64,000 nucleotides of DNA, taken from Protonemura montana (lineage: Eukaryota > Arthropoda > Insecta > Plecoptera > Nemouridae). The DNA lies in NCBI GenBank assembly GCA_947568835.1, contig OX387612.1, forward strand, positions 9,920,001-9,984,000, read 5' to 3'. This document shows positions 51-64,000 of this stretch, one piece after another (within the stretch, counting starts at the first letter, position 1; each line of letters starts with the position of its first letter). The notes under the pieces are model-generated. The model was not told the DNA's origin. It made no database searches and was given only the letters and a program-made list of their open reading frames with translations. The translations under genes were made by a program, and so were the position numbers.

Positions 51-1100
51 AATTAACAGGAACCGAGTTCGGATTGGTCACCTTTCATCATGTAATTGGT
101 TACTTGTAATTAGAGGCGTCTGAGAAGTACACTGCATACGCGCAATGAGCGTAAGTGTAATGCGCTTTTAGATAATAATAAATTAATAATAATAATAGTA
201 ACAATGATAGCTCATTAACAGTAATTGCAATAGTAATAATATTAAAAGTAGGAATAATAATAATAGTATGGTATCATGGTATACTTATTGAAGGGCAAGG
301 ATTTTGGGAGTGGTATATTTCTTGTAGTGTGGCCAACAGGTCATACCATGAGTTATTCCTCGAGATTAGAGAAGGGGTTTTGAATGAGTAAGTACGGTAA
401 GTTGTTGTATCAATAGAGGCGCAGATGAGTTACAAGGAATTACTATGAACCGACCCTTTGTCTGCAACTCAAACTTGTAGTGAGTTTTATAGGGTTTCGT
501 TTTGAAAAAAATAGTAACCAGCTGAATTTTGTAGATTTTCAGGACGTCTCCCTAAACATTAGCTTAAAAGTTTATAAAAATCAACTCAGGCCATCATTAT
601 TGTTCATCTCTATTTAGGGGTGTTTTTTTAATAAAAACACGATTATTAACAAATATAAAGGAGATATCTTAAGTTGTGGACGGTAATGTTGTAGTTTACT
701 TCATTGCCAATCCAACGACACCAAAAAAATACAAATTAATTCGGGGGTGACCAAGATATTGCAATCTGAAGTTTTCACTTTTTTGTCATTTTCACAATTT
801 GACCTGGATGAGCGTCGGTAATGAGAAAAATGCGAGTTTGCACTCAATTAAATGGGTTTTAAATCAAGGTAGTTTGTTAATGGTAAAAGACGGTTCAAGT
901 TCAGACATTCAACTCGTACTTCTTCAAGAATCGTCGGGAAGGGAAAAAAGGCAAATCTTTAAAACCTATGTGGGGTTTCGAAATGCTTCTGCGTTTTTAT
1001 TTCTTTAAGCAATTTTGAATACATCACCTTATATATTTTAAAGTGTTTATAAGGAGTGATACAAATACCGGAGAAGGTTTTTTTTGCCTGCTGGGAGGGA
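51..1100. other. AT-rich intergenic stretch, no gene seen
   Basis: Nothing coding is recognised here. An (AAT)n/(ATA)n-rich patch lies at about 168-270. The short open frames have no recognisable motifs and unremarkable composition. Confidence 0.5.
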
Positions 1101-1109
1101 GACCTCCCA

Positions 1110-2490
1110 TTGTCTTCCAGATCTCCCTGATCTTCCAGTGTATCCCACATATCCCAGTGTCACGAAGAGTGGGTCGCAGGTTTGAAGTCTGGTCGGGTAG
1201 CTTCCAGCTTCTCGGCAAAAAGTTAAGTAAAATGTAAACAATTCCCGTGTGCTTAAAATAGCCGACAGAAAATTTCGTTGTAGAGAGAATTCTTTCAGCG
1301 AATTCCAGCAAATATTTTAATTAAAAGAACTCCAGTATAATACTTGTATCAACGCTTGTACCTACATATAATAAGCGACGGGGCACTCCTTTGCTGTTCA
1401 AGTAGGTATATGTTATTTCCATCAATCTGTCGAAATGTCCCGATGGCTGGTTAGATTGGTCGCTTCTCCACCGACAACTTCCGACCGTACTGTGTTCGAA
1501 ACCCAGCCGGACCGTTTTTTGCTCTTCATAAATCGACAGCTTGACTTAATTATTATTGACAATTTTCATCACGTGTTTAGTAATAAATCCTCCTTCACGG
1601 ATCGGTCCACGTAGGTCTGATGTATGTTTATAGTCTACGAGAGTGGATCGCGGTTCGACTCCAGGCTCGTCCATATTTAAGGACTGAAAGCACTTCATCT
1701 AGATAGCAGTGCTGTGGAAGGGATGGCAATATAATTATCCTAAGTACACTTTCGATTTTTTAGGATATATATACCTTTATACGATCTATACCTCCCTAAC
1801 TGCAGAATGGCGGCTTGGCTCATTGGTAGTAAGCTGGCATCGTGGCTTGGCAGGGATGATAGTCCCGAGTTCAAAACCCGTATTTTTTTTTTTGTGGCCA
1901 AGATGGTAATGTAGGGTTTTATGATATTTAGAGTAAAACAATGGCGGGGGTCAGTGTCAGGGTTTGCAGTGCTTGGGTCAAACCGAGCAAGTGTGATGAC
2001 GAGCACTTGGCAGCGGTGGTGGTTGTATTTAACTACACGTGGTCATGTAGATCATGCATTCACATGACCAATTTCGGGACACAGGTTTCGAATCCTGGCA
2101 CCGCCACTGGACGGCAGTTGTTCTACAAGAAGAAAGATCTGGGAGCATTGAGTAAACGAAAATATAAAACTCCAAAAATATCTTCGATGCTACTGATTTG
2201 GATTCTGCGTTCAAAATAGGTATTTAAATGTAATTCTTCCCTTTGTAAAAACGCCCTTTAATTCAGCCGCTCTAATAGTCGAGCGGCGAGTCCGTTAGGT
2301 CGATGTTGTGAAGGGTCCACGATCAAATCCCGACCGAGGTGAGGTAAATTTATATTTTTGTTAACATCAGGCGTTTCAAGTTCTGAGTTACCGACCGAAG
2401 TCCGGCATTGCGCAACAGATTGCGCTGGGGGTCACTGTGCGTCTTAACACGACTGCGTGTTCGGTAAAACTTAACAAATAAGAGTAAAAA
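1110..2490 (+). repeat. Left arm of a ~4-kb imperfect inverted repeat with tRNA-like modules
   Basis: This arm matches the reverse complement of 3890-5110 in the same order along its length. Anchors seen exactly are AATGTAAACAATTCCCGTGT at 1231-1250 versus 4973-4992 (complement), GAGCAAGTGTGATGACGAGC at 1985-2004 versus 4378-4397, and GCGCTGGGGGTCAC at 2422-2435 versus 3919-3932. tRNA-like stretches with B-box-like GTTCGAANCC cores lie at about 1171-1194, 1438-1512, 1604-1672, 1808-1890, 2030-2107 and 2263-2336, all on the + strand. None folds into a convincing functional tRNA by eye. The arm could be a foldback element or an old inverted duplication of a SINE-rich region. Confidence 0.75.
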
Positions 2491-2837
2491 GGGGCGCTAT
2501 CACCGTGCATCGGGCTGAGACAGGCGTCCTCTAGTCAGCCTCTGAAGCTTGCACTCACGCGTTGGCTTGTTGCAAATGGTGAAAGCCCATATTTTTTAGT
2601 AGTGCTAGATGTGGCTACGTAGCACCTCTGCACTACCGGGGATTAGCTCTTGCTTGCGAGGACGAATAATAATCGTCCGTGAAATTTTAATAATTTTCGA
2701 AGATAAATTCCCGGGCAGCTAACGGAATTGCGGTTCTAAAAAGAAGATGCAGTCGATGTCATGCATCTATCAAGTAGGCCAAGTTTTCAAACATGAAATT
2801 CAAATAGGTTCATTTTTCTACACAATTCATGACCGTT

Positions 2838-2912
2838 TGCGTGGCACAACGGTATTGTCGCTGCATCGGTAACATCATAGGATTCCGCTTCCTAGATCGA
2901 ACCCACTTAACG
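2838..2912 (+). repeat. tRNA-like module inside the inverted repeat
   Basis: An A-box-like GTGGCACAACGGTA is followed about 50 bases later by a B-box-like AGATCGAACCC. The spacing is that of a tRNA or tRNA-derived SINE head, but stem pairing looks poor, so it is called tRNA-like only. Confidence 0.4.
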
Positions 2913-2997
2913 GAGGAAGCTTTTGGCTTTTGGAATACAATATCCACCCGTGGTAGTGTGAGTAAGGAGACTCATATATTTAAAAAATGCTGAAGTA

Positions 2998-3083
2998 AAC
3001 GAATGTCCGCTGGGTCGTGCGGTTAAAGGCATTGAATTCAACGATCATTTGGTCATGGGTTTGATGAAATACTGAGTTCGAGT
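2998..3083 (+). repeat. tRNA-like module (Ser/Leu-like A box)
   Basis: The A-box-like GGGTCGTGCGGTTAAAGG resembles the D-arm of type II (Ser/Leu) tRNAs. The B-box-like GAGTTCGAGTC follows after a long variable-arm-like stretch. Likely a tRNA-derived repeat, not an active gene. Confidence 0.4.
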
Positions 3084-3154
3084 CACGTTCGTTCCACGTC
3101 GCAGCTACATACTCTTGCAATTTTTTTTTTTTGGGCGTATAGTTTAGACAGTAG

Positions 3155-3207
3155 CAAAACTGCCGGGCGCTCCTGGCGCTTCGCGCCAGTCGCGTCCGCC
3201 AGTTTTG
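3155..3207. other. GC-rich central hairpin of the large inverted repeat
   Basis: A perfect 7-bp stem CTGGCGC/GCGCCAG with a TTC loop lies at 3173-3189. It extends outward with few mismatches into AAAACTG/CAGTTTT on the outside. Its centre (about 3181) coincides with the axis predicted by the inner arm anchors (3177-3191). It stands out against AT-rich surroundings. Confidence 0.7.
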
Positions 3208-3407
3208 CGGGCCGTTCCCACGACCCCAAACCCCACCTATACCCCGTGTGCAGCTCCTACGTCTAGCATCAAGTATATGAGAATGGGAATTAGAGTTAAT
3301 TACAAAACTAGCATCAGAGCCACCTGTTGGCAGAAATTGGTACTACACCCCGGACTTATAATAATTTTTCACATTTGGTCAAGTATTATCTAGTCCAAAA
3401 AGCAGCT

Positions 3408-3482
3408 ACGCCGGGAATCGAAAGCGTTACCTCTTCGACACGAAGCACAGCGCTTACCACAGAGCTACGCTGTACGGGACAT
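3408..3482 (-). repeat. tRNA-like module, reverse orientation
   Basis: On the minus strand an A-box-like GTAGCTCTGTGGTAAGCGC is followed by a B-box-like TTTCGATTCCCGGC with tRNA spacing. This is the best tRNA-like unit near the centre of the inverted repeat. The acceptor stem does not pair well by eye. Confidence 0.45.
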
Positions 3483-3602
3483 CAAGACGGGAAATAAACC
3501 AAACTAACAACGATAAAATTCTCGCCCGAAGTAACATATAAATGCCTCCTATTAACCAATGTTTAGCTGATGATATTTACAAAAAAAAAAACTAATACTG
3601 AA

Positions 3603-3672
3603 GTGCTTGTGGTCGAGCGGTTGAAGTATCCGCTGGCAATGCGTCGAAGCCCGCGATCGGACCCCACCGACT
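3603..3672 (+). repeat. tRNA-like module (Ser-like A box)
   Basis: TGGTCGAGCGGTTGAAG matches the D-arm consensus of serine/leucine tRNAs. The downstream B-box position reads GCGATCGGACCCC, which is degenerate. Probably a decayed tRNA-derived repeat. Confidence 0.35.
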
Positions 3673-3889
3673 TTCGTTTTTTTCGTAATAATTAGTGTGA
3701 TCAAATGTCTGAACGACATCAAGCGATTAAAAAAATTCCAGTACCAGCACCGAGAATGAAGGAGTTGCCCCTAAATAATTGAGAATTTGACAACGATGGT
3801 TCACCATTACAGCCCGACTGGAGGAACGCCAGTCGACCTCCGTTGCCTGATCACAGGTCCTCCAGTCCTTCTTATTTGAAAAGTTTCAC

Positions 3890-5110
3890 CGAACACGCAG
3901 CCGTGTTAAGTCGCACTGTGACCCCCAGCGCACTCTGTTGGACATCAATTGTACTTGATCAATTAATGTTGGACTTCAGTCGTTAACCCTAATGTTGAAA
4001 CGCCTGATGTTAACAAAAATATAATACTATCATACTTTCATCGGGATTCGATCGTGGATCCTTAACTTCGTCGACCGAACGGACTAACTGCTCGACTTTA
4101 AGAGCTGTCTTATTACAAGGTTTTAACAAAGAAAATAATTACATTTAATTACCTTCTTCGAACTCAGAAACCGAATCATCACCATCGAAGATATTTTCCG
4201 AGTTTTATGTTTTCGTTTTCTCAACGCTTCCAGATCTTATCTTGTAGAACAACTGCCGTCCAGTGGCGGCGCCGGGATTCGAAGCTGGTTTCCCAAAATT
4301 GGTCGACTCATGAGAGTCTTGGTGCTGTACCAACATGACTATGTGTAGTTGAAAACAACCGCCGCCGCCACCCGATGCTCGTCATCACACTTGCTCGGTT
4401 TGACCCGATCACTGCAACCCTGACACATTTTACTCGTTATTTCAAAAAACCCTTGACTGCCATCCTGTACATTAGAAAAAAAAAAACTGCCAGGATTTGT
4501 TCTGGAACCCAATAATTCTAAGTTACTATATCAGCTTGCTACCGATGAGACTAACAGGCATGCATCCAAATTGGTGTTATAGATCGTTTATGTATTCTAT
4601 AAATAACCTAGTAAAAAAAAATCTAAAACGTATACTTCTATGAAGAAGTATTTCGTGCTATAGATCTCAAAAGATGGAGGAGGTGGGAATCGAACCGCGG
4701 GCCACTGGCACCGTAGACTTCGACCATACAACACGGGCGGGACTCAAACGCAGTACGGTAGGATGTTGATGGTGGAGTAGTTACCTTTTCAACCAGCTAT
4801 CGAGACAAGTCGACTGGTCGGGGGAAAGAACAGATACTTGAATAGCAAAGGAGGGCCCTATCATAAATTACATGTACAAGTAATTAGCTGGATTTCTTGT
4901 AGTACAAAAAAATAGTTGGAATTTGCTGAAGTTATTCTCTCTCCAAGAACATTTCTGCCAGCTATGTTAAGCACACGGGAATTGTTTACATTTTACTTAC
5001 CTTTTCCCGAGAAGCTGAAAGCTGCGCGACCGGCCTTCGAACCTGCGACCCCTCTTCCTAACACTGGGAGATCTGGGAAACACTAGGTGATCTAGGAGAC
5101 ACTGGGAGAT
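3890..5110 (-). repeat. Right arm of the ~4-kb imperfect inverted repeat
   Basis: Reverse complement of the left arm (1110-2490), with matching tRNA-like modules now on the minus strand: about 4041-4110, 4264-4350, 4676-4735 (a clean GCGGTTCGATTCCCAC B-box), 4731-4806 and 5029-5052. The right arm is somewhat shorter between 4650 and 4870 than its partner, so indels have accumulated. Outermost similarity is the CTCCCAGTGT-type stretch at about 5060-5110. Confidence 0.75.
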
Positions 5111-5917
5111 AGTGAAATTAAATATCCGTTTCGCTCGCTACGCTCATTAAAAAAGGATAATGAGAAAAACAATTGAATACTTGTGACGTACAGGTTGCCT
5201 AGCAACTGGGATCTAATCACTATGTCACGTTTAACAAGGCTGAGCATTAAATCAACAAGTGCGTTTATAACGCCTATCTACTTAAGTGGCTGGAGGTTAA
5301 CCGCAAGGAAAATATGATAAACTTATCGTGTATGTCACACGATCTAGCTGAAAGCCAGCCTTCACGCCAACTGTCCTGCTAATAAGACCGCGGTTCACTT
5401 TTTGTTCGGGTAGAGAAGTTTGAAGTTTGAAATTTGATTTCAATTTGCGACCTCAAAAGACCGTGTATCTAGAAAATTGTTCTTTTGGACGGAATCTAGA
5501 GATTTCGAGTAATTCTTTTGCCGTTTAAATCGTAGATAATTTTCAAAACGGGCTGCAACAGCGAAACAAACATCAGACAAACTAACGTTCAGTTCGTAAT
5601 CCTAACTATCCGACATGATGTCACGTTTTCAAAAGCTTACAAGACGTTCATAACAACTTAAAGAATCAATTTTAACCCGCAACGTCCAACAATGACTCAA
5701 TTATCAGCAATAATACCAGTGCAACAATTGTTTCTTCGTCATTATCACCTGACCCTGTTCCGAATCAGCCGCCCCTGCTCCGTAAATCAATACCGCTCTG
5801 CGAACACCACGTGACGCTATGCGCGAGGGTCACAGCGCATGACCGTCGTTGGGATAGTTTACCTTGTTCTGAGTCTTGCATGAGTTCTGATCGTCGAGAT
5901 TCCTGGACGCCGACATC
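5111..5917. other. Upstream region and 5' UTR of the carboxypeptidase gene
   Basis: No coding signal is seen. The last ~170 bases become less AT-rich and contain a palindromic CACGTG E-box-type site at 5808-5813, about 105 bases before the predicted start codon. No TATA box or initiator could be assigned with confidence. Confidence 0.4.
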
Positions 5918-8900: not shown

Positions 8901-11900
8901 CAGACTTTATTCTTGATAACTTTGAAAAACTAATGTATGTGAGTTTTATGGAACGTACCTGAAGACATACCGGCTCACAGACGTAAGTAGATGAATGTTT
9001 GTCGCCCTTTTTTCTCTATGATTTTCGGTTTGGTAGGTATGTGGCAAAAGCTAACATTGTGCAGTCGTAAAGAGATTCGCGCCACCATGACCGTAACATG
9101 GGCAAATAGGTCAGGTAGACTGAGGTGCTGAGGGAAAAATGTTAAGGTAACTCTAAGAAGAACACCAAATGAAATGTTTAGGGCTGAAAAGCATGTTTAA
9201 CCCCACAAATTACCACGTCAATATATAGCATCTGTACATGTCTAGCCTCAGAGAAGATAACAGCCCAAGCACATTGCTATCAACTCATGAATGAAATTTC
9301 AGTTATGTTTTTAGTGGTGGGATTTCAAAATACTGCAAAATAATACCTAAAATTGTTATAAGAGACAGAAAAATTATTTGATCAGCTTAACAGACAAAAC
9401 ATCTTAAAACGGCCAAAACTTTAGAGCAAAATAAATTTGGCAGATATCGGCATAGATTATTTGTAGTGTTTTTAAAAATGGCAGTTGGCCCGCATATCAC
9501 CCCAAAACGACCCGAGGCGCATCTGCCGATAAAGTATGTTCTCTCGCTAGACGGAATTTAAACTGTGGTATAAAAAAGTAAGTGCATACTTTTTTTTGAA
9601 AGTTCAATTGATGAAAGTGCTCCCCCCATTGAGAGACATTTTTACAGAACCTATTCGTTGATTTATTGGTTATAAAATCGATCGTAAATTCAACCAATAG
9701 AACACAACATGTTCTCTTTGCAGACGGCGTCCCTGCTGACGCTATCGTCATGCTTCGAGTATCATCACCATGACAACGAGCAGATGGTGGCCGTTCTCGG
9801 TTCGGTTCACGCGCGATGCCCGAACGTCACGCGAGTGTACACGTTGAGCGAACGCTCGGTTCGGGGCCGGCCGTTGTATGTCATCGAGTTTGCCAGCACG
9901 CCTGGATTCCATCAGATCGGTCAGTGAGCCACCCTCTAGCTACCCACGGGACTGACCTCTCTCTTGCAGTGTGACGTAATAGTTGCCTAGAAATTCATCC
10001 ACCTCTTTGGCATTGCACAAAATCCATTCCGGATGGTGTCAAATTTGTCGGCCTTTTTTATGTAAATTCATAGAGTGAATTTTACTTTGAATTTGATGGT
10101 AATAGGCGATTTTCCTGCCGGCCTCCGCCAAAAACATATCCTCTCCCATGTTGTTAAGTGTTTGCAGTTTTGTTCCTCGCCCCCGAGATGGTAGAATACC
10201 CCCATGCATAGGTATACCGAAGTACAACCTGATACCACTGATACCAATCCTGATACCACTGCATTTAGAATATTAGTAACTTGCGGTTACCTAGCAGCGT
10301 TTTAATCCGAGGTCATGATCGCCAGCTGGCATCGACACCAAACGGCAAACACCCATATTTAATTTAATTGGAATCTGCTCCAAAAGATGTTTTCAAAATA
10401 TTCAGTCGGATCAGATTCGCTTGTTAAGCAGAAACCTTTTTTAAGTTTGCCAGGACAACCCTTGTTTTATCCTACCCATTACTCCCATTGTGATGCATTG
10501 TGATGAACTACCTGATGCTGGGCACGGGTTACTTGTTTTAGATTGCCATGACAACCCTTGTTTCACCCACCCATTACTATTACATTGTGATGAACTGCCC
10601 GATGCCGGGCACGGGTTACTTGTTTTATATTGCCATGACAACCCTTGCTTAACCCACCTATTACTACATTGTGATGAACCCTAGGCGCTGTCAGGTCAGG
10701 GTGGAACGGACAATTGTTGATGCCATCTACGTACCCATGTTTAATTGCTTGGTTTCCAAATGTTTCAGGCCAGCCAGAATTCAAGTACATCGCTAACATG
10801 CACGGCAACGAGGTGCTTGGACGGGAGCTTTTGCTCAAGCTCGCCGACCACCTATGTGAACAATATCTTGCCAAGGACCCCGAGATCACCAAGCTAATCG
10901 CCATGACTCGTATCCACTTGATGCCGTCGATGAATCCTGACGGCTGGCAACTGGCAACGGACGCGGTATGGTTTTGTCCTTGGTCTTACCGTTGAGTGTG
11001 CAGGTTATAGGTAGAGACATAACTTTAATGTTGACCTGTAGAGCAAACGAGGCCGGCTTCACGTGATAACGGAAGACAAATACAGATGGCGCTTGCAGAC
11101 GTCCTTTAAAACAAACTTCTACAATTACTAGAGCCACGATTATATGGTGATGCGCGAAATCGCGAATTGTTCTAATCTCTTGTTATTCTTACAAATGAGT
11201 GCGATTCATTGAATTCCCAACTCAAATATGTAATAATCTCATCGCGACATAACGCGAAATTCACGAAAAATCATCCATAACACCGAAATCAACTATTTCC
11301 CGCGAAATCATCGCGAAATGAGCCTTTTCCCATCCATTTATCTTAAATTTCAGATAATCTGTTTTTTTTTTCATTTTTATCAAACCATATTTCACGGAAA
11401 ATAAATAAACAAACAAAATAACCCATTGGTTTTTCCGTGAATATCCGACAAGGTCATCGTCTATCTATGTTGCACCTACTTGTGTAGTTCGAACATTCCC
11501 GACCAATACCGAAGCACCCGATACGAGTCGACCGCGTGATTCGAGCAATGCCGCATCCCGCATGATGACCATGAGTGATACAGGGATACTCACGTAAAGC
11601 GTGCGTAATATCAACCCTTCTCTACAAACTTAATATGGTGAAACCTACAGTGAGTGCGCAGTCTAGAGCTGCGGAGTTTAAAGATCACCATTTCGTCGTA
11701 AATGATGACAAAATACTCATGTGTGGGCTTTGTAATTGTAGGCTAGAGTACCAGCGTCGAGATACTTTGACAAAACACGTGGAAAGTGATCGCCACAAGA
11801 ATTTAAAATCACAGGAATTAAAGTCAGAATCGATTCGCAAACGCCAACTTTCGATAACGGACACATTAGGTAATGCAAAGAAAGCTAAGGACGACAAGGA

Positions 11901-14900
11901 AGGATTTATTATAGACACAACAGAAGCTTTTATAGCTGCTGGTATTCCGGTAGAAAAATTCGACAATGTGCATCTTCGCGAGTGGTTTCGTCTACACGTG
12001 AAAGGTAGTGGGGATATGCCGACTGCGGATTGGGTTCGCAAGAAATATATTCCAATTGTTGGCGAGAAAGCAGTGAATAAAATTAAAGAGCAAATTAAAG
12101 ACAAGCCCATTTCCATTTTATGCGACGAAACAACGGACAAAAGCGGCAATTGCGTCTTCAACGTGCTTTTTCGGCTGATGGAACCTACGAGTTCACAGAA
12201 AGTTTTTTTGGCTGCTTCAGTGGTATTGGACCGTGCAAACAACACCACATGCTCAAACGCTGTCATCAGTACTTTGACAAAGTACGAAGTAGATTATGAA
12301 AACTGTGTTTCATTAGTGACAGATTCTGCCCGATACATGACGTCTTGCTTCAATGCCCTGAAAGTCATAATTGGTGAACACTTTCTTCATACGCAGTGCT
12401 GGGCACACAAAATTAATTTGGTGGGCCAGATATGGCAATCTGAACTGGAGGAACTGAACACAGTAGTCTCAAAGATAAAAAGTGCGTTTTTAAACACTCG
12501 AAAGAGGAAGCACCAATACCTCGAGTTTCTGCGAGAAAAATACGGGAACAATTCACCAATGGTGAAATTATTTCCAATGCCAGTCCTCACAAGGTGGAAT
12601 TCGTGGTTCAAGTCGGTAAACTATATTAGTATCTATTTCAAAGATATTATAACGTTTTTTGAGCATTTCTCAGAGGAAAATGCTGGAGTAACGTTTCTAA
12701 AACACATAAATAAAGAAGACTTTGCTGTAGTGTCAGCCTTTGCGTGTTTTGCGGCTGAAAACTCGCTTGGCCTCGTAAAGCTAATCGAGTTTTTAGAGGG
12801 AAGCAAATACCCCGCTGCAAATGTGCTTTACTCAAAATTAGAGGACCTAATCACGAAGATGACTTTGCTTGCTAAAGGAATTTTTTCAGGAGATCTACGT
12901 TCCAAGCTAGCAGCTCTAAGCCTTCTAAAAAGAGCAGAAATTGAAGGCAAGCTGAGAATTGTAGCACATCATGGGCTCACCAAAATTCAAATTTTGATGG
13001 CTACAGATCCGTCAAAATGTGAGCTGCAGGCTTGTGGTCGTTTATTTAGTACAAGGAACATTTGCAGAGCGGATATTGATGAAAAATTTATTGCGCCACT
13101 TCTGAAGAATCTGCCGAGTTCTGCTCAACTGAAACCCAGCATCAGTGTATTCATTGAAGGGCTCACAGTTCTCCAGAAGTTAGTTCGAGAAGAAACGGCC
13201 AAACCTAACGTCAAACATGTGGACATTTGCCAACTTCTCTGTTCTTTAAAACCTGATTTTGAAATGTTTGCTAAATTTTCTTTGTTCTGTGTTTGGCTCA
13301 CAGCCTCAAATGTCGATGCAGAACGATCATTTTCACAATACTCTGTTGTAGTAAGTGACCGGCGCAGAAGTTTGAAACCTGAAAACGCAGAAATTCTGAC
13401 CATGGTAGCTTTTCACTAAAGGTCGTAGTCATGAAATGCAACCATTGCCAAATTTTCTTCTTTCCAAATGTGTGTCTTTCAATTCGATTTCAATTTTTAG
13501 TTCAGATTATTTATTGACCAATAATTGGAGATACGTGTTTTTCGTTTTAACTATAAATGCTTAAATATGTAAATACTCATTAAGAGTCAATATTGTTTGT
13601 TTTCTTTACAGGTCATGGAATTTGGGAATGAATGGTAGATTTTTCTATTTCGCGATAAATGCTAATTCGATAGATTATGAAGCTATTTCACTATCATGTG
13701 TGTATTTTGCGAAATAGCCACTAATTTCCATTCAAAAAATTTAAAATGTTTATTTTATCTCTCTAAACACATATTTCCATGAATTTGTCAGATTATTTCC
13801 CCCAGTCTTGCTGTCAGGTCTGTTTCTCATCAAATGCTGTCAACATTCCTAAGTTTAGGGGGTAAAAGTAGTGGGGCAAATTGTTTGCTGTATGAAACCA
13901 TTGCCATTGGTTGGCTGAAACTTCCCCTCCAATTCTCATGGACATAAAAATCTCAAACCCCTCATTTGCAGTTCTGACTTTGCAAACTATTTGAGCCCCA
14001 GTGTGTTGATGCAGAGAGGTTTTTTCGTCAATAAAACCTTGTGCTGACTGACAAAGGAACAAGAATGAAGGAAGCTATTCTTGAAACTTGTTCAATGTTA
14101 AGTTTTAACAAGTAGTAGGTGTCGCTCATACTGCCATACAATGTAATTCATGGTGGCATTTAACTTACTGATGTTGAGGACCTACGCAAAATATTTGCAT
14201 TATTATTGATAACTTCTTTATTAGAGATTCCAGTGCTTGCCCAAAATCCGCATTCGTTTCGAATGTAGATCGCAAAAGCCCTTTTTTTCTATTTTGCTAT
14301 AAACGCTAAAATTCAAATAATTAGCACTAAAATTTCGAAAAAATTAATGCTAAAAACACGTATCCCTACCAATAATATATACCTAGACGTAGTAGCACTT
14401 TTAAAAAGCTGCGTGTCAACTGTCAGAAACACAGAAACTTTTTAGTTTTAAACTCTTTTTGGAAAATTAGTGTTACAAATAGGAGCTAATTGAAATTACT
14501 TTAATTTCGCATCAATAATAATAAAAACATAAAGCTGATACGGATACATGTTTCTTGTGTCTTTATTTGTTTTGTAGTTTTCTTGTGGCGTAACAGTGTA
14601 TTTTATGAAAGATGAAGGTATTACTATTAGTATTAGCTACAATTTATAGGAACTTACTGTCTATTATTGAACAGAAACACTATGTATAAGTCTATTCTTC
14701 TTTTTTTCGTCGCCTATGTCCAAAATCTGCTATAGACATGAAATTCTGTACTTTTTTTCATAACACCGCCATAACACCGAAATCCAAAAAGCTTACCACG
14801 AAATTTTCGAAATCATAACACCATAAAATCTTGGCTCTAACAATTACATAATAACGACTCAAAATATCGTTACGTGTTTATCAATAGTTTAGGTAAAAAT

Positions 14901-17900
14901 TGATGGAGATCATTTGAGCATGAAAAGTCTCAAAAGCGAGTAACCTACAAAATATATCGAAATTAGGTAAATTGCATACGACAGTGACTCCACTTAACGG
15001 CGTGTTCCGGTACTCTGCATTTTTGTCGGTAAAGTAGTCATTTGGCGGCCATCTTTCACGCAGAAACTGTAACATTAACGTTCTGTTTCTACCTACAGCC
15101 TGTACACTCAACGGTCTTACTCGTATGGCGGTGCTGATGTTTTTTTTCGCTAAGTTACAAACGAACATTGAAAAAGCAAATGAGTAGTTTTGAGTTAGAA
15201 CACAAATATTGTTGACATAGCAAACCAAGCAAGACCTATAGAATCACTAACAATTTAAACTGAAATAAAATCACGTTTCCTCCAAGCTATTCATTGTTCT
15301 CTGTTACCCAGGGCAACCGTGACTATCTGACCGGTCGCACCAATAACAACAGCGTCGATCTCAACCGGAACTTCCCCGACTTGGACAGGATCATGTTCAC
15401 CAACGAAGAGACCCAGGTTGACCACAACAACCACCTCCTCGACCAACTGGACAGGCTCTCCGAACCGGTGCGTGCGATCGCCGTCGATTACAATTTCATC
15501 AAAATCAGCTGCTAGACTAGTGACAGAGGGTCAGCGCCAATACAGTGTATCAAAGGGACAAGGCTAAGCGGTGGCCGGTCCTTGGTGCAGTTGGACAGGA
15601 GCAGCCAACACAGTGTGTCGAAGGGACGAGGCTAAGCGGTGGCCGGTCCTTGGTGCTGTTGGACAGGAGCAGCCAACACAGTGTGTCAAAGGGACAAGGC
15701 TAAGCGGTGGCCGGTCCTTGGTGCTGTTGGACAGGAGCAGCCAACACAGTGTGTCAAAGTGACAAGGCTAAGCGGTGGCCGGTCCTTGGTGCTGTTGGAC
15801 AGGAGCAGCCAACACAGTGTGTCAAAGGGACAAGGCTAAGCGGTGGCCGGTCCTTGGTGCTGTTGGACAGGAGCAGCCAACACAGTGTGTCAAAGGGACA
15901 AGGCTAAGCGGTGGCCGGTCCTTGGTGCTGTTGGACAGGAGCAGCCAACACAGTGTGTCAAAGTGACAAGGCTAAGCGGTGGCCGGTCCTTGGTGCAGTT
16001 GGACAGGAGCAGCTAACACAGTGTGTCGAAGGGACAAGGCTAAACGGTGCTCGGTCCTTAGTGCTGTTGGACATGAGCAGTCTGTGTGCCGGTACCGGAT
16101 TCACCGGTTTTTCCCTGCTGTCAAAGGCTTCTCATCGTCAGCACCCTGTTATTTACCAAAAGCCAATAGACCATGTGTCACAGTGACAGTTGCATTACTG
16201 GAAAATCGAGAGAGAACTGAGAAACTTACCGAACACTTCTCGATTCAGATCCAGCCCGAGACGCGAGCCGTGATGCGTCTGATCATGACCGTGCCGTTCG
16301 TCCTCTCGGCAAACCTCCACGGCGGCGACCTCGTGGCTAACTACCCGTACGATTTGGCACGTAGCGACTCGTCTTACCAAAACGCCGACCACCAGGAGTA
16401 CGCCAAGAGTCCGGATGATGACACGTTTCGGTGAGTGACATTTGCAACCAGCGTTTACAGACTAATCTTTGGTCTTCTTTTGAAAAGGAAGTGGGAGAAG
16501 GGAATAGGAGTTTGATCCTAGATAAATTTAGAGCAAATCTACTTAGTTTTTGGGAAAAAAATTCTAGTATACAGGTACTGCTCATAATTTCTTCATACTA
16601 TTATAACTATGCTCATATAGATACTTGCCCCAAGTGCATTAAATACAACACAGTAAAAAAAAAGTACGGAGCTATTGATACCAATGCTGGTGCTGTATTC
16701 TTGCCTTGATGAGAACCACTCTGACAATGTCCGCAGGTAAAGATAAAAATGCAAGTATCTGATTGGCTGTTGCCATGGAGACGAGTCTTCAGCTGAAAGA
16801 TATTTATTTTTAACCTGCCATTGCAAAACTAGCTCTAAGAATGGCCATGCATAATTAACTTCGGTCAACTGTCATATATATTTTTTCATTATTATTAACA
16901 CTATAAACGTCTCAAAAATACACCGCGCATTGCAAGCGTTTGCAATTTAAATGAGATTTCATCTAAAAACTGTCATCTTTGATTATGTTTATTTTTTATT
17001 TAGCCACCTGGCGCTGGTTTACGCCACAAACCATGCCACCATGTCCTCGGCCAAGAGGGATGGATGCGGTTACGACGGATACAACTTCGGCAAGCAAGGA
17101 GGTAACAGACTCATCAATTTCAATCGATTGATTTGTGGGGTTAAGCAAGACAATGTTTTGACAACGAGCCACGAGGCAATGTCCTACTGGCTTTGGTGAA
17201 TGAGTGGATGATGATTTTGACAAACGCAGCCTAGCCAAGAACGGAGAAAGGAAACCTGGTGCCGGCACGTAGCCTACTCCTGTCGAAGAGCACCAAGGGG
17301 ACCACCGGCTAACGTCCCTTCCGAAGGACGGTACAACTCGAACAACAGGATTCCTCTACAAATCCATGCTGTCGAGAGGTTGATAAGCAAGGCGAGTGAA
17401 GTTGCTGTACTAACTTTCATCCCTCCAGCCTCTCTCCCGAACAGAACTGATCATGTGTATGGTCACCCATCCAATACCTGACACAGCGCAGTGTTGCTTA
17501 ACTTCGGTGATCTCACGAGAGCCGGTGTTTCCAACGCGGCAAACCGATCTTGTCCTCAGGCCACAACGTCAAGTCTGTGGGTTTATTTCACCACCAGGCA
17601 TAACCAACGGTGCAGCGTGGTACAGCGTGGAAGGAGGCATGCAAGACTTTAACTACCTCTCGTCCAACGACTTCGAGATCACCCTGGAGCTCGGATGTGA
17701 CAAGTATCCGAAGACCAAGGAGCTCAAGAACGAGTGGGAACGCAATAAGAAGGCGCTCATCACTTTCATCTGGCAGGTAAAGACTTCTTACCCCATAAAG
17801 CCCATGATGGCATGGCATGGTATAGTATGGTATGGTATGGAAGTAAATGACATGAGATACCTCATGTCATCAACCTCACCTAGCTCATGTAGCTAACATT

Positions 17901-20213
17901 TGCTGCAGATTTTCTCTTGTAAAATACCACAGACAATTTTAACTTATTTAAATTTTTCTTTACAAAAATTCTGTTTTGAGAAGGTAGTCACCACACATCT
18001 AAAAACATTATCAGACTACTTAATTATTTAATTAATAATTTTAGTTAAATTGAAGAGATTTGTTAAAAAAATGACCGCAAGCGCCATCAAGTGCCAGCTA
18101 CCGTTACCACGTGTTGCCGGCCTCGTTTGCTCAGCAGCTCAACATTAAAACCATCGTACTAATTTCTATAAACTTAATGGTATCAATAAGAAAGTGTGGG
18201 AAAGAGCAAACATTCAAACAGTAAATCTAAAATAAAGACAGCAGAAACGTCAGAAGTGTTTGTTATGTTGCCACCAGATCCACACTGGAGTGAAGGGAGT
18301 CGTCTCTGATGCCGTGACTGGGAAGGGGTTGTCCCACGCTGTCATATCTGTAGCGAACCTGACAAGCGGCGAGGCAACGCCAATCAGACATGACGTAACT
18401 TCCGGTAAGACATTTAAATAAGCTCCTAACAGTTGGGAGACACTGGAGCTCACAGAAGTTCAACAACACTGCAGTGCATTAGATACTGGATGAGAGACCA
18501 CCGAACGTGTTATTGATATTGTTTCACGAAGAATTTTTGAAAACTCTCGAGGTGCTGTTCTTTGCGATCAATAAAATATGGAATCAATACACGTTTTGAG
18601 ATTTGGAGCTCTGTCAGGTGATCTTAGCATTTTCATGGCTACCGAACATTGAATCTACCATTGAACCTCCTATGCTAGGCCATGATATACCCGTGGTAAC
18701 TTAAGATAGCAGAATTGAGAAGCTCTGACAGGCGATCTCAGCATCTCCGTGGCTACCAAACGTTGAACCTCCTAACCATGGTCCTAATTTTTGCCCCATC
18801 TACTAACAATCCCCGCACAAAGCCCATACTTGATCAATGTTCGTAACCTCCTATCTTTGCCCATGTAGTGCACGACGGTGACTACTGGAGGCTGTTGACT
18901 CCCGGTCGCTACGAGATCACAGCCACCCGTCGCGGATATGCCCCCGAGACGCGGGTACACGATGTCAAGGAGGTGCAGCACCAGGAGGCGCAGAGGGTAG
19001 ACTTCCATCTGCAGCCGGTGAGCGTTTGTGAAGCAAATTGTGTTAAATTATTGTATTAGAGCGTATAAGTTTTATTTTAGTGTAGTTCACCGAAGACCTC
19101 AGCGAAGGGATAAATAATATTTTATGACAAAATTCAGGGTATAAATCCACACAACAGGGAAAGCTCGACTCCCAGAGAATAAGTTGAACGTGCAATCAAA
19201 CTAAGCCCGTGGTGCTGTTGGACAGGAGCAGCCAACACAGTTTGTCAAAGTGGCAAGGCTAAGCGGTGGCCGGTCCTTGGTGCTGTTGGACTGGAGCAGC
19301 CAACACAGTGTGTCAAAGTGACAAGGCTAAGCGGTGGCCGGTCCTTAGTGCTGTTGGACAGGAGCAGCCAACACAGTTTGTCAAAGTGGCAAGGCTAAGC
19401 GGTGGCCGGTCCTTGGTGCTGTTGGACTGGAGCAGCCAACACAGTTTGTCAAAGTGACAAGGCTAAGCGGTGGCCAGTCCTTGGTGCTGTTGGACGGGAG
19501 CAGCCAACACAGTTTGTCAAAGTGACAAGGCTAAGCGGTGGCCAGTCCTTGGTGCTGTTGGACAGGAGCAGCCAACACAGTGTGTCAAAGGGACAAGGCT
19601 AAGCGGTGGCCGGTCCTTGGTGCTGTTGGACAGGAGCAGCCAACACAGTGTGTCAAAGTGACGAGGCTAAGCGGTAGACGGTTCTTATTCTTAGTGCTGT
19701 TGGACAGGAGCAGCCAACACAGTTTGTCAAAGGGACAATGCTAAGCGGTGGCCAGTCCTTGGTGCTGTTGGACAGGAGCAGCCAACACAGTGTGTCAAAG
19801 GGACAAGGCTAAGCGGTGGCCGGTCCTTGGTGCTGTTGGACAGGAGCAGCCAACACAGTGTGTCAAAGTGACAAGGCTAAGCGGTAGCCGATCCTTGGTG
19901 CTGTTGGACAGGAGCAGCCAACACAGTGTGTCAAAGTGACAAGGCTAAGCGGTGGCCGGTCCTTGGTGCTGTTGGACAGGAGCAGCCAACACAGTGTGTC
20001 ACAGAGACAAGGCTAAGCGGTGGCCGGTCCTTGGTGCTGTTGGACAGGAGTTAAACATTAATTTAAGTTCAATTTTCAATGACAACACGGTGTGTCGTTA
20101 AACATTGCTAATTGATGCTGTTTTAGATTCACCGAGAACACATGCGACGGTCAAACAACCTGCGGAAACGTTGGATGTCCAACAGCGGTCTCTTCAAGCG
20201 TTCGGCAGAATGA
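5918..20213 (+). CDS. Secreted zinc metallocarboxypeptidase, M14 N/E subfamily (CPE/CPN-like), 10 exons
   Basis: Predicted exons are 5918-5941, 9724-9919, 10769-10965, 15312-15467, 16249-16430, 17004-17101, 17598-17776, 18278-18404, 18869-19017 and 20127-20213 (TGA), all GT-AG and in frame, giving about 464 aa. Enzymes of this family remove C-terminal Lys/Arg from peptides. An N-terminal hydrophobic stretch (residues ~1-18) looks like a signal peptide. Zinc ligands H85 and E88 (MHGNE) and H215 (NLHGG), Asn-Arg 157-158 (DLNRNFPD), Y304 and catalytic E315 ([13 protein letters not shown]) are all present. Residues ~345-435 match the transthyretin-like domain ([19 protein letters not shown]). Length is like CPE/CPN/CPM (about 440-480 aa), not multi-domain CPD. 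The tail is short and basic with two Lys-Arg pairs, without a GPI-type hydrophobic end, so secretion is inferred. Whether it is the E or N/M ortholog is not resolved. Confidence 0.9.
6823..7258. repeat. 118-bp minisatellite, left part
   Basis: About 3.7 copies of a 118-bp unit (for example starts GTTGACACC at 6906, 7024 and 7142). It continues at 8517 after an inserted hAT element. It lies in intron 1 of the carboxypeptidase gene. Long antisense open frames here simply reflect the repetition. Confidence 0.9.
7251..8524. mobile_element. Non-autonomous hAT element with CAGGG termini
   Basis: The element spans 7259-8516 (1258 bp). Its ends are exact inverted repeats CAGGGACCCGAACCG / CGGTTCGGGTCCCTG, and it is flanked by the 8-bp direct repeat GTTGAAAT (7251-7258 and 8517-8524). 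The 8-bp duplication and the YARNG-type terminus are hallmarks of the hAT superfamily. Subterminal regions are rich in GGTTCC repeats on both sides. There is no transposase; the interior holds a LINE ORF fragment. It interrupts the 118-bp minisatellite. Confidence 0.85.
7804..8148 (+). pseudogene. LINE reverse-transcriptase ORF, C-terminal fragment
   Basis: The frame contains [10 protein letters not shown], a variant of the region downstream of the RT core, then [14 protein letters not shown] and [20 protein letters not shown]. This order matches the C-terminal end of jockey/CR1-type LINE ORF2 proteins (LP..I......FK..LK..L....FY...EF). A stop lies at 7801-7803, and no RT core precedes it, so it is a 5'-truncated relic carried inside the hAT element. 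Confidence 0.65.
8517..8905. repeat. 118-bp minisatellite, right part
   Basis: About 3.2 further copies of the same 118-bp unit as at 6823-7258, in the same orientation. The first copy shows GCTGACACC where the others read GTTGACACC. The array was one block before the hAT insertion. Confidence 0.9.
8906..9723. other. Rest of carboxypeptidase intron 1
   Basis: AT-rich sequence ending in the acceptor TTCTCTTTGCAG at 9712-9723. No repeat or gene is recognised. Confidence 0.5.
10449..10685. repeat. ~90-bp tandem repeat in carboxypeptidase intron 2
   Basis: Copies begin GCCA[G/T]GACAACCCTTG at 10449, 10545 and 10632, with lengths of 96, 87 and about 50 bp. The common core includes GATGAACT and GGGCACGGGTTACTTG. 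The remainder of the intron (9920-10448) shows nothing recognisable. Confidence 0.8.
11121..14847 (+). mobile_element. Full-length hAT transposon
   Basis: The element is 11129-14839 (3711 bp). Terminal inverted repeats are about 21 bp, TAGAGCCA-(C/A)GATT-(A/T)-TATGGTG. The 8-bp target duplication ACAATTAC is perfect (11121-11128 and 14840-14847). Subterminal CGCGAAAT-type motifs repeat several times at the left end, as expected for transposase binding sites. It encodes an uninterrupted transposase. Intact ends, intact duplication and an intact ORF imply recent insertion. Confidence 0.93.
11635..13419 (+). CDS. hAT-family transposase with N-terminal zinc finger
   Basis: The reading frame opens at 11575, but the Met at 11635 (MVKPTVSAQ) is the likelier start, giving about 594 aa; residue numbers here count from 11575. 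A C-x2-C...H-x5-H finger (C50, C53, H68, H74) resembles BED/CGGBP1-type fingers. The RNase-H-like core shows the acidic triad: D184 (LCDETTD), D250 (VTDSARY) and E583 ([10 protein letters not shown]). The hAT signature CWAHKINL is at ~275-282. The C-terminal dimerisation region ends [15 protein letters not shown]. Size matches complete hAT transposases. No stop or frameshift is seen, so it may be active. The similarity to CGGBP1-like hATs is from memory of the family. Confidence 0.9.
   Translation: MVKPTVSAQSRAAEFKDHHFVVNDDKILMCGLCNCRLEYQRRDTLTKHVESDRHKNLKSQELKSESIRKRQLSITDTLGNAKKAKDDKEGFIIDTTEAFIAAGIPVEKFDNVHLREWFRLHVKGSGDMPTADWVRKKYIPIVGEKAVNKIKEQIKDKPISILCDETTDKSGNCVFNVLFRLMEPTSSQKVFLAASVVLDRANNTTCSNAVISTLTKYEVDYENCVSLVTDSARYMTSCFNALKVIIGEHFLHTQCWAHKINLVGQIWQSELEELNTVVSKIKSAFLNTRKRKHQYLEFLREKYGNNSPMVKLFPMPVLTRWNSWFKSVNYISIYFKDIITFFEHFSEENAGVTFLKHINKEDFAVVSAFACFAAENSLGLVKLIEFLEGSKYPAANVLYSKLEDLITKMTLLAKGIFSGDLRSKLAALSLLKRAEIEGKLRIVAHHGLTKIQILMATDPSKCELQACGRLFSTRNICRADIDEKFIAPLLKNLPSSAQLKPSISVFIEGLTVLQKLVREETAKPNVKHVDICQLLCSLKPDFEMFAKFSLFCVWLTASNVDAERSFSQYSVVVSDRRRSLKPENAEILTMVAFH
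15512..16112. repeat. 68-bp minisatellite, locus 1 (SINE-related)
   Basis: About eight copies of a 68-bp unit containing AAGCGGTGGCCGGTCCTTGG and GGACAGGAGCAGCCAACACA. It is in intron 4 of the carboxypeptidase gene. The array is entered by a SINE-tail-like stretch (GACTAGTGACAGAGGGTCAG) and left by TGTGTGCCGGTACCGG, both with counterparts in the 5S-derived SINE. Confidence 0.93.
16585..17003. other. Carboxypeptidase intron 5
   Basis: AT-rich. Positions 16880-16960 (TATAAACGTCTCAAAAATAC and following) match the 3' part and flank of the tRNA-like element seen at 47290-47440, so an old fragment of that family lies here. Confidence 0.45.
17152..17560 (-). mobile_element. 5S-derived SINE copy in carboxypeptidase intron 6
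   Basis: On the minus strand the head at 17545-17461 reads like 5S rRNA: CTCTCGTGAGATCACCGAAG, then TTAAGCAAC, then GGATGGGTGACC (box C). The body follows down to about 17170 and matches the copy at 53825-54451. Target duplication not identified. Confidence 0.85.
18058..18155 (-). mobile_element. Fragment of the 7-bp-TSD MITE family
   Basis: The reverse complement shares the segment around GAGCAAACGAGGCCGGC with positions 11040-11065 of the split MITE. Only part of the element is present. Confidence 0.5.
18600..18785 (+). repeat. 114-bp minisatellite, locus 1
   Basis: About 1.6 copies of the 114-bp unit (GAGAAGCTCTGTCAGGCGAT, CATGGCTACCAAACGTTGAA). It sits in carboxypeptidase intron 8, between the two exons encoding the transthyretin-like domain. 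Confidence 0.85.
19205..20052. repeat. 68-bp minisatellite, locus 2
   Basis: About 12 copies of the same 68-bp unit as at 15512, in the same orientation, in the last carboxypeptidase intron. One copy near 19675 has an 8-base insertion. After 20052 a SINE-tail-like GTGTGTCGTTAAACATTG follows before the final exon acceptor. Confidence 0.93.
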
Positions 20214-21543: not shown

Positions 21544-24500
21544 TCACCAAGCATCCGGTAGTTTTATTTTCAAACCCAAATCGCTACCGACTCGATACCT
21601 GCTTGTTCCCCTTTGATTTAAGTCTATTTCCGATCGCTTGGTGATGTCGAGCAGGCTAGTGAAGAACGAGCTGTTTGTCTTCCAGCTCTCCCTTCTGCCA
21701 GACTGCGATGGGTTGAACTCAGACTCATCCGCTACTCGAGCGAAGCCAAAGTACTCCTGAATCACCTGGTAGAGTGTGTTGTTGACAATCAGCTTCACCA
21801 GCCGTCTCGGGGGAACCAAAAAAGACTTCTGTTTCAAGTAGTTCTCTTTGCTGCGGCTCATGAAGAATTGCGAGTAGTAGACAGGTTCATTGTTGCTGAA
21901 TGTGAAAATCATTTCTTCCAGCCATTTACTGGACATTGAGTCCCTGGAAAGCGAAATTGAGAAGCTCTGTCAGGCGATCTCAGAATCTTAATGGCTACCA
22001 AACGTTGAATCTACCATTTAACCTCCTATGCTAGACCATGATATACTCGTGGTAACATAAGATAGCAGAATTGAGAAGCTCTGTCAGGCGATCTCAGCAT
22101 CTCCATGGCTACCAAACATTGAATCTACCATTGAACCTCCTATACTAGGCCATGATTTACCTGTGGTAACATAAAATAGCAGAATTGAGAAGCTCTGTCA
22201 GGCAATCTCAGCATCTCCATGGCTACCAAACATTGAATCTACCATTGAACCTCCTATACTAGGCCATGATTTACCTGTGGTAACATAAGATAGCAGAATT
22301 GAGAAGCTCTGTCAGGCAATCTCAGCATCTCCATGGCTACCAAACGTTGAATCTACCATTTAACCTCCTATGCTAGGCCATGATAAACCTGTGGTAATAT
22401 AAGATAGCAGAATTGACAAGCTCTGTCAGGCGATCTCAGCATCTCCATGGCTACCAAACATTGAATCTACCATTGAACCTCCTATACTAGGCCATGATTT
22501 ACCTGTGGTAACATAAGATAGCAGAATTGAGAAGCTCTCTCAGGCAATCTCAGCATCACCATGGTTACCAATGATAAGAATTGGGTAAGGGAAAAGAAGG
22601 ACACAACTGACATTCAAGTGACGGATAACGAAAGATGTGTAGAGGTACAATGCTCCACAACCGAACATTTCTACTTATTCTTTCCTACTCTTTGGCACTC
22701 CTTTTTTATTTGGGGATGGTTTTTTAAAACTAGTTTCTCAGTAAGATTATGAGTTACAAAATGAGCTCATCCATAGCACTAGAACGACCTCATAATTTCT
22801 CGACTGTTGTAACAAACACAAACCATACCCCAAAATTAACCGATGAAAAAAAGTCGTGCTTGTTATAAAAATTGACGGTCAAAATATCAATAAAAATGAA
22901 CTAGGCAAGATAGTCAAATAGTTGCAACTATCTGCATTTATCCCAACCAGTTTTTGTAGCCTCAGTAAGTTGCGTTCTTTCCTCTTCTTCGTTACATATA
23001 CCAGCCTCCAACGCGCTTACCATTAAAGCTTTAAGGAAAGCAAAACAAGTGTCTCTACTTTTCGGCTACTCATAAATAGATTTGAGCTAAAAAAAAATAT
23101 ACGTTAGCTTGTTTGAGAGCCCCACCTATCTGCCACCTTCGGCACCACCAATCGTTAAATGTGTACTGATGACAACTTTGCAGCACATTCACCAGCCAGA
23201 GTTCTGTCCATGTTACTTTCTGAATGTCAACAAATTATGTCGACAAATTATTCTCACCATAATATCTTCTCGAGTTCATCTGTGATGTCTGCAGTGGCGC
23301 TGGCGTCAAGTACTGGGGCTACTGATTTTTCAGAGAGGTCCAACTCCATGCCAGGAGTGTGTTTCAGTTGATCCCTCAAATGGCACTTCATGTCCATGTC
23401 CATTGGGCTGATGATGTGGCATTTTAGTCCGATTGTTATCTCCCACGGCTTGGGCTTGGTAGTGATTACTGTCCGGTTAGCCTGCCGAAATCGGGACGAA
23501 GAGTTAAGAAAACGTTGAAAACTTCTCTTGTATCTTCCCAAATGTTTCTATTATTAGAAACTCTATTAATTAAATGATCTGCCCATTGCAATTTAAATCA
23601 GATTTTAGAAAATTCTCAATCTCTTTTTGAAATATTCCTTGTTTCAAATTAGCCTGCAGTCCCTTGTAATTTACCCACAAATTTCACGCCAAATTACGCT
23701 AGGTCACAGCTTGATATCTTACGTTTCTAAGTTTCTGGATACACTCAAAATCAAGCCGTGAATTTGGAAATTAAAAGCATCCAAACCTGTATTGTATTAA
23801 TATTAAGTTGCATAGGCACAAATTTTCCAGATTGTACTGGTTAAGAATGGACAAACCGATTGATGGTTTCGTTTGCAACAGAGTAGGATAGCTTCGAGAA
23901 ACGTTGAATTTTTGTATGAACTACACTACCTTCTCTTAACTCTCCTCTCTCCTGAAAGTTGACATGCTTTTTTTTTTTTTTCATTAGTTCTCGGCTGGTG
24001 CAGGATAACATAAACTATTCGGCTAAAACACAATCGGTTGGAATTGGTCAGACAGAAATGAAAGCTAGGCTGAGACCATGTTCTTGTGCTAAATTACAAA
24101 CACACACACTGAAAAGCAGGATTGAGCAATAAAAGGTTATGACAGGAAGCTTACCACTGCGTTGCCAGAAACTGCGGAACATTGTTCCGTTTTAGAATGC
24201 TGTGTATTAGGGATCCCGAACGCAATAGATGAGCGTAGTAATATTTAGGGGTGATAAAATGTGAAGCCGATCCATTGCATATATCACAACGAAACAGTCA
24301 AAATTCACGAAATTATTTGGAAATTTGTGAATAAAAAAGGAAAGAAAACACATACGAGCTCAAAAACTTCACAACTACTTAATTTTTATGAAAGTCACAT
24401 CTTGGCGAAAAATATCAAACGCTTTCGGCGGTACTACTCCAAAACGTTTATAAAAAATGAGAAAAATTTCGTAAATTTTGAATAGTTTCAAAACTATTCG

Positions 24501-36591: not shown

Positions 36592-36660
36592 GGGAGCCGG
36601 GAATCGAACTGCGGACCCCACGCATTAGAATCCCTGACCATCCCAATGTGCTATGAGGAG
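36592..36660 (-). repeat. tRNA-like unit
   Basis: On the minus strand TAGCACATTGGGATGGTCAG (A-box-like) is followed by GCAGTTCGATTCCCGGC (clean B box) at tRNA spacing. A second unit follows at 36728. Confidence 0.5.
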
Positions 36661-36727
36661 GTGTACTATCTACTCAATTTGTTATCAATCACGTAATCAC
36701 GTGATGCAATCTGTCACTCAGAACAAA

Positions 36728-36792
36728 AAACGGAGTGGACAGGATTCGAACCCGGCCTCGCCCGGTGAAACTCGCAGAGTTTCACCATGTCT
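36728..36792 (-). repeat. tRNA-like unit
   Basis: The minus strand has CCGGGTTCGAATCCTGTCC, a perfect B box and T-arm, preceded by ACATGGTGAAACTCTGCGAG. It is near the unit at 36592 and in the same orientation, as in the 1-5 kb array. Confidence 0.5.
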
Positions 36793-37426
36793 TATTTAAC
36801 CTGTCCATGTCATATAACAATTTGTGTAACCTATATTCTGTGCAAGCAACCATTGTGTTATGTATGCTGTATGTTCACATAACTATCAATAAATCATGTA
36901 ATGTACAAGAAGAAAGACAACAAACAAATACAAATACAAAAATTGCGACCAAGCTGAGTTGTGTTTCCTACTTTCCTCTTCCTTTATTCATTTTAAAATA
37001 AGAATAAATAACTCAAACACCAAATCAACCAAGTTTCTACATTTTTATTTAAAAAATCACGACAGTATACAATTTAATATTAATCTTAACGGTATTTTCG
37101 ACAGTTAAAACATGGTTTGGCACGATCTCTATTGACGTCAGCCAAGACCGAGGCCCTCCTAGGCTTAGTTCACAACAAACGTGCTTTGCGTCAGCGCCAC
37201 AGCACATTTTTAAGTTCCTTTTCTCAAGCCTTTGTGTCTACTCGTTCATTTTACAACAAGTCCATTAGCTTTGCTGATCAAAATACATGCATTGCACACA
37301 GTTAATTATTACTGAGCCTCCACCTTGCAACCTTGCAAGGCCTTGCAGCCAGGGATTAGTTTGTTAATTGAAAGAGACGTTAGACTTCCCAGCAGCATTT
37401 GATTTTTTTGCATATATTTTAATGAT

Positions 37427-63908: not shown

Positions 63909-64000
63909 TAGACCAGTGCTACAAGGACAGCGCAAATACAGTGCTCATGGTTCCGAAGCGGTGGCCGGTTCTTGGTGCTGTTGGACAGGAGCAGCCAACA
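63909..64000. repeat. 68-bp minisatellite, locus 4 (start of array)
   Basis: Begins with the SINE-tail-like GACCAGTGCTACAAGGACAG and enters the first 68-bp unit (AGCGGTGGCCGGTTCTTGG). The array runs out of the window, 16 bases upstream of the cadherin exon 63892-63607. Confidence 0.8.

Follow-up and report, generated by a model that had tools for sequence, protein, structure and literature searches.

A possible remnant of a foldback-like element with mirrored rows of tRNA-like modules in Protonemura montana

A palindromic locus of about 4.0 kb, located in the 64-kb stretch of DNA analyzed here (the window), is best read as the remnant of a decayed, non-autonomous foldback-like element, a reading to which we assign a probability of roughly 45%. 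Short terminal repeats bound it, its inverted arms span 1.3-1.5 kb and its middle domain is centered on a hairpin; degenerate Pol III-type (tRNA-like) promoter modules are lined up along the arms and face inward (Table 1).

Table 1. Features of the palindromic locus in window coordinates; positions and edges of the modules (m, r) were curated by eye.
Feature	Position	Strand	Remarks	Basis
Whole palindromic element	1100-5112	.	about 4.0 kb	arm alignment, shuffles, end repeats
Left terminal repeats	1100-1160	+	AGATCTCCCAGTGT-like at 1100, 1128, 1147	
Left arm, homologous part	1102-2560	+		alignment to right arm, block z-scores
m0	1170-1210	+	B-box-like only; mirror near 5033-5048 (-)	sequence, alignment
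m1	1444-1510	+	box-like A and B motifs, T6 run at 1515; mirror ~4737-4798 (-)	
m2	1603-1675	+	strong B box 1652-1662; mirror B box 4686-4696 (-), right-arm counterpart without the 5' half	
m3	1809-1882	+	A box at 1816, B box up to 1878, T11 run at 1883; mirror ~4486-4552 (-), carries an 11-base run	
m4	2006-2106	+	A box 2008, B box to 2095; mirror 4262-4373 (-)	
m5	2268-2345	+	A box ~2276, B-box-like 2320-2330; mirror ~4030-4113 (-)	
Left inner segment	2561-3120	.	without homology to its mirror	z 0.1 for 2561-3100
m7	2637-2716	+	tRNA-like fold (z -1.7, equaled by 9 of 200 shuffles) and degenerate B box; confined to the left inner segment	
m8	2842-2904	+	A and B box pair; left inner segment	
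m9	3003-3095	+	box pair, T12 run at 3121; left inner segment	
Axis hairpin	3154-3208	.	GC-rich, 26-nt arms 85% complementary, 3-nt loop	
Right inner segment	3240-3799	.	without homology to its mirror	shuffles, local alignment
r9	3400-3482	-	tRNA-like, fold z 0.2; right inner segment	curation
r8	3600-3672	+	tRNA-like, fold z 0.5, T7 run 3677; right inner segment, orientation opposite to the usual one of the right arm	curation
Right arm, homologous part	3800-5110	-		alignment to left arm, block z-scores
Right terminal repeats	5061-5112	-	AGATCTCCCAGTGT-like at 5061, 5080, 5099	

A global alignment of the left arm (1.46 kb) with the reverse-complemented right arm (1.31 kb) is collinear, with 78.5% identity over 1250 ungapped columns and 270 gap columns, and the differences comprise 115 transitions and 154 transversions. 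Block by block, 1102-1510 paired with 4735-5110 gave a z-score of 35.7, 1511-1800 with 4565-4734 one of 6.1 and 1801-2560 with 3800-4564 one of 50.4, and in each case none of 200 dinucleotide shuffles scored as high; control pairs of flanking stretches reached -1.6 and 0.3 in the same test. An inverted-repeat search returned an ordered ladder of pairs with 71-90% complementarity that runs from 1100/5093 to 2527/3826. Self-comparison by blastn joined 1113-1499 with 5109-4744 and 1883-2483 with 4483-3870 as inverted matches, in addition to the axis hairpin, and yielded no further match of the palindrome region in the window. Both arms derive from one sequence and are old. The initial annotation of this DNA had described two arms in opposite orientation that share at least five or six tRNA-like modules in the same order; the orientation is confirmed by the alignment, and six module positions (m0 to m5, curated by eye) recur collinearly. 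As to the outer arms, the collinear self-alignment excludes the case that it had named against itself, in which there would be scattered matches and no continuous arm.

The homology of the arms begins inside the terminal repeats on both sides, which argues for an element with defined ends. Each tip carries three copies of the 14-mer AGATCTCCCAGTGT, inverted between left and right, with spacings of 28/19 and 19/19. When up to two mismatches are allowed, this motif has six matches in the 64 kb, all of them at the tips of the element, compared with a mean of 0.41 and at most 2 in 100 shuffles. The left outermost tip, itself a small inverted repeat, is unlike its counterpart on the right. When direct duplications were sought around the tips, 26 short matches emerged, and the ten listed ones all correspond to the CTGGGAG/GGGAGA motif of the terminal repeats; therefore, no target-site duplication can be claimed. 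No clear one was found at the tips, where a decayed copy could be missed at the present divergence.

The arms are separated by a middle domain (2561-3799), in which arm homology is restricted to the axis hairpin. For 2561-3100 against 3262-3799 the z-score was 0.1 (93 of 200 shuffles as good), and the best local alignment of the inner segments scored 20.0 against a shuffle mean of 20.1, or 23.0 without reversal. Divided further, the sub-pair 2561-2830 with 3500-3799 reached a z-score of -1.1 and the sub-pair 2831-3120 with 3240-3499 one of 2.1 (2 of 200 shuffles as good), which leaves room for a faint similarity close to the axis, and similarity returns in the final 60 bp beside the axis (z 6.2). 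These scores define a layout of arm, unrelated segment, axis hairpin, unrelated segment and arm. The giant palindrome that had been proposed thus stands as far as the outer arms are concerned, but a continuous palindrome is ruled out for the inner segments. Both unrelated segments are almost equal in length, which is possibly due to chance or to the replacement of once-homologous DNA. The region contains one stop-to-stop frame of at least 110 codons (2980-3342, minus strand), for which no Pfam match was obtained, and no transposase was found.

The hairpin itself, with a score of 22.0, ranks second among the tight hairpins of the 64 kb (best 22.5, third 15.5), and the best score in 20 mononucleotide shuffles of the window was 16.0. 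Folding of the 123-nt hairpin surroundings as single-stranded DNA gave a z-score of -5.1, with none of 200 shuffles as good. The center of the hairpin at 3181 lies inside the range that the inner half of the arms gives for the axis (~3176-3190), and the axis of the outer arms is shifted to ~3106-3120 by indels. Both the inner axis that had been placed at 3177-3191 and the strong GC hairpin reported on it were therefore located correctly. An Rfam match of the hairpin to TB9Cs3H1 was discarded, as it reached 21.3 bits at a gathering score of 45.

The architecture of the axis brings in a close rival of the foldback-like reading, namely that a row of tRNA pseudogenes or tRNA-derived repeats was duplicated long ago, head to head and in inverted orientation, in an event that would have been seeded by fold-back at the hairpin and would have involved no transposition. 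We regard this as quite possible. A hairpin with a 3-nt loop exactly on the inner-arm axis and the similarity of the last 60 bp beside it are in line with such an event, as are the lack of another copy in the window and of a clear target-site duplication. However, a duplication of this kind predicts homology up to the axis, whereas about 560 bp per side are without any, and the shared start in terminal repeats stays unexplained unless the duplication happened to stop there. Compared with the foldback-like reading, it performs better on the axis and worse on the ends and the unrelated inner segments.

Pol III promoter signals were scored with assumed A-box weights and with B-box weights that were derived from T5 tRNAs, and with these weights A-box/B-box pairs of a score of at least 13 occur eight times on the plus and twice on the minus strand of the left half, and six times on the minus and twice on the plus strand of the right half. 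The density of box pairs is 4.49 per kb in the element versus 1.15 per kb elsewhere in the window. Tested separately, the left plus strand had eight pairs against a shuffle mean of 1.70 (reached by none of 200 shuffles), and the right minus strand, whose count is not independent of the left arm, had five against a mean of 1.64 (reached by 3 of 200). The two pairs on the opposite strand of each side were reached by 53 (left) and 51 (right) of 200 shuffles, and the maximum among the other 110 half-overlapping 2080-bp tile-strands of the window was four. The enrichment of inward-pointing Pol III A-box/B-box pairs is statistically real and directional. Furthermore, T runs of at least five trail several modules, some of them shortly after the B box, in the manner of a Pol III terminator, but T runs outnumber A runs by only 7 to 6 in the left half, compared with 8 to 2 on the minus strand of the right half. 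A looser first B-box scan with 902 matches was too permissive and was not used.

None of the modules was recognized as a tRNA. ARAGORN predicted no tRNA in the palindrome region at default settings, and the 16 and then 37 calls in 4.25 kb at lowered thresholds, which fell on both strands and mostly had long introns, were uninformative. Rfam returned no tRNA-family match in the region at E-values up to 10 and one match of 11 bases to the tmRNA T-loop. Five T5 phage tRNAs served to build a tRNA covariance model, which gave 24 matches in the T5 tRNA region with its five training sequences included but reached at best 7.7 bits in the palindrome region, for a simple hairpin. In clusters of tRNA genes or pseudogenes, where some members are inverted, distinct tRNA-like units are likewise neighbors. 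Such clusters, when intact, score as tRNAs and no module of the present element does, and an intact tRNA cluster is ruled out by the three methods. The scoring of individual modules that the initial annotation had suggested as a check thus turned out negative, and from its description of tRNA-like modules the directional Pol III box pairs remain but the recognition as tRNAs does not.

There is also no sign that the modules have been maintained: the arms agree at 302 of 404 aligned bases in the six shared modules (74.8%), a lower share than the 679 of 846 in the DNA between the modules (80.3%), and folding was mostly ordinary. Among 13 module sequences folded singly only the two m4 copies were unusually stable (z -3.8 and -3.1), and the other 11 ranged from -1.7 to 1.9. 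Of the 32 base pairs of the left-arm m4, 23 are unchanged in the right arm, three show a change on one side, one a change on both sides and five are broken. The modules look like degenerate relics. Their starts in the left arm, as curated, are spaced 204 bp on average (SD 42). To assess mutual likeness, 15 sequences were compared in 105 pairs; 12 of them came from the element, two were tRNA-like units at ~36.6-36.9 kb and one was a tRNA-Ser. The best pair inside the element reached a z-score of 2.9. As the modules are not clearly alike, a tandem array of one tRNA-like unit was rejected.

Taken together, the foldback-like reading is favored by the collinear arms (z 35.7 and 50.4), by three inverted terminal repeats per end that are absent elsewhere in the window, by a non-homologous middle whose only long frame is without a Pfam match, by box pairs that point inward in both arms and by a plan that matches foldback elements of the Tetris type, which are described with a terminal domain, repeats in the inverted repeats and a non-coding middle (PMC4079207). 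It is weakened by the lack of a clear target-site duplication and of a transposase and by the result of blastn, which in a copy-number look-up confined to the 64 kb found no second copy of the palindrome in the remaining 60 kb, and further by the deviating left outermost tip and by a hairpin exactly at the axis, for which the model has no need. With no clear target-site duplication and no second copy in the window, we speak of likeness to foldback elements and not of membership. Both options of the initial annotation, a foldback element or a head-to-head duplication, survive; the inverted terminal repeats at both ends, the long arms, the non-homologous middle and the hairpin at the center are on the side of the former, and the lack of a clear target-site duplication and of another copy in the window is against it. 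Tandem repeats in inverted repeats have been proposed as secondary transposase-binding sites (PMC3573991), and this proposal is a reason for us to prefer a dead non-autonomous foldback-like element. Such an element would have been mobilized by a transposase from elsewhere that binds the terminal repeats, and the modules are probably tRNA pseudogenes that one arm had taken up and that were mirrored by the duplication of this arm. It is unlikely that the locus represents a new foldback family in which each arm consists of distinct Pol III units in a row, almost all facing the central hairpin; if it did, every insertion would supply a new site with a platform of many Pol III promoters.

Four stretches of 30-33 bases, starting at 1224, 1975, 2101 and 2350, are identical between the arms and sit between modules or at the edge of m4. 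Identical runs of at least 28 bases number four against a permutation mean of 0.29, and four were reached in one of 5000 permutations. Patchy gene conversion between the arms or a constraint on the spacers would explain these blocks, and either fits, as two copies cannot discriminate between them. The same stretches would suit a hairpin-RNA locus, in which one long transcript would span both arms, fold back and be processed into small interfering RNAs, but the arms have only 78.5% identity with 270 gap columns, and we consider this reading very improbable. Moreover, mirrored modules would give RNA of the same sense from both arms, so that short Pol III transcripts alone would form no double-stranded RNA, which would be expected only from read-through of the axis.

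A chance pile of independent tRNA-derived SINEs or a read or assembly artefact is hardly credible, even in a repeat-rich window with tRNA-like and 5S-like elements and with a weak similarity of m2 and r9 to the tRNA-like unit at ~36.6 kb (z 5.7 and 4.8), since the collinearity of the arms (z 35.7 and 50.4) rules out the pile for the outer arms, as the initial annotation had held in calling the arrangement too ordered for it, blastn finds no module elsewhere in the window, and a divergence of 21.5% with many indels would be unlike a palindromic read artefact. The inner modules could be independent insertions.

The locus is unusual in its contents and decayed. Tetris and Galileo likewise have kilobase inverted arms with short repeats inside and a middle without known coding, and are non-autonomous, but they occur in several copies with target-site duplications (8-10 bp in Tetris, 7 bp in Galileo), in contrast to the lack of a clear one here (PMC4079207; PMC3573991). 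Their arm repeats measure ~210-220 bp in Tetris and Galileo F and the terminal repeats described here ~19 bp, and tRNA-like modules, a feature of the present element, are not mentioned in the accessible text for either of them (PMC4079207; PMC3573991). MER6, a MITE with a V-SINE domain (PMC6887750), is similarly an inverted-repeat DNA element that holds a SINE-derived piece, but it has one domain in a short MITE instead of a row of different Pol III-like modules per arm. The modules share internal A and B boxes on degenerate tRNA bodies with tRNA-derived SINEs, from which they differ in that none recurs in the other 60 kb (blastn), that several have a T run close after the B box and that the whole row is mirrored. 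None of the titles and abstracts listed in a literature search, which covered few subscription papers, described the layout of the palindrome. In collections without animal genomes, which gives these negatives little weight, blastn found no match of the left arm to phages or of the whole element to plasmids, and exact-pattern scans had 0 matches in viral contigs (each of three patterns) and in genome contigs (one pattern).

Should further copies with the same ends exist, the locus would exemplify a kind of transposon that disperses Pol III promoters in rows, which might bear on chromatin boundaries, on small RNAs and on how SINEs and tRNA pseudogenes arise. As a plain inverted duplication, it would be a modest case of a palindrome seeded at a short hairpin. 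The surrounding window contains many tandem and dispersed repeats (blastn self-comparison), and its translated frames match CFAP65 Ig-like domains and cadherin domains.

The window holds a hAT-like frame of 614 codons, in which a domain search of the translated frame revealed a DUF659 match (8.8e-09) and a match to the hAT dimerisation region under its cut-off. A shorter relative on the opposite strand matches the flanks of the stretch enclosing this frame at 76-94% in the within-window comparison and lacks its coding part. One window holds both an autonomous-looking element and a putative deletion derivative.

The repeat enclosing both tRNA-Ser-like genes, which were found by ARAGORN and Rfam, spans 144 bp with 90% likeness within the window and is probably a tRNA-derived SINE. 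Both 5S rRNA-like sequences exceed the Rfam gathering score and are enclosed by dispersed repeats, which we regard as SINE-like, 5S-derived elements. Two adjoining tRNA-like units on a common strand were also observed; the box-pair scan gave A/B-box scores of 27.8 for the first, which is followed by a T run, and 25.4 for the second, which in pairwise comparison weakly resembles the tRNA-like modules m2 (left arm) and r9 (right inner segment) of the ~4.0-kb palindrome.

Within-window comparison also revealed a 490-bp self-palindrome (75%), which together with its related sequence probably represents a MITE family, and two tandem repeats, each in separate arrays.

Repeats and related features in the window
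Feature	Position	Strand	Score
Stretch with hAT-like frame	11124-14847		
hAT-like frame	11575-13419	+	
Shorter relative	43571-44954	-	
tRNA-Ser-like gene	47366-47441	-	
tRNA-Ser-like gene	52879-52954	-	
Related to tRNA-Ser-like repeat	27373-27509		
5S rRNA-like sequence	17435-17552	-	43.0 bits
5S rRNA-like sequence	59020-59140	+	52.9 bits
Further matches to 5S-enclosing repeats	53822-54444, 32547-32884		
Pair of tRNA-like A/B-box units	36600-36860	-	
Self-palindrome	51233-51722		
Related to self-palindrome	38846-39086		
Tandem repeat, ~68-bp period	15536-16080, 19207-20050, 42080-42423, 63956-64000		
Tandem repeat, 114-bp unit	21947-22571, 48932-49247, 59894-60104
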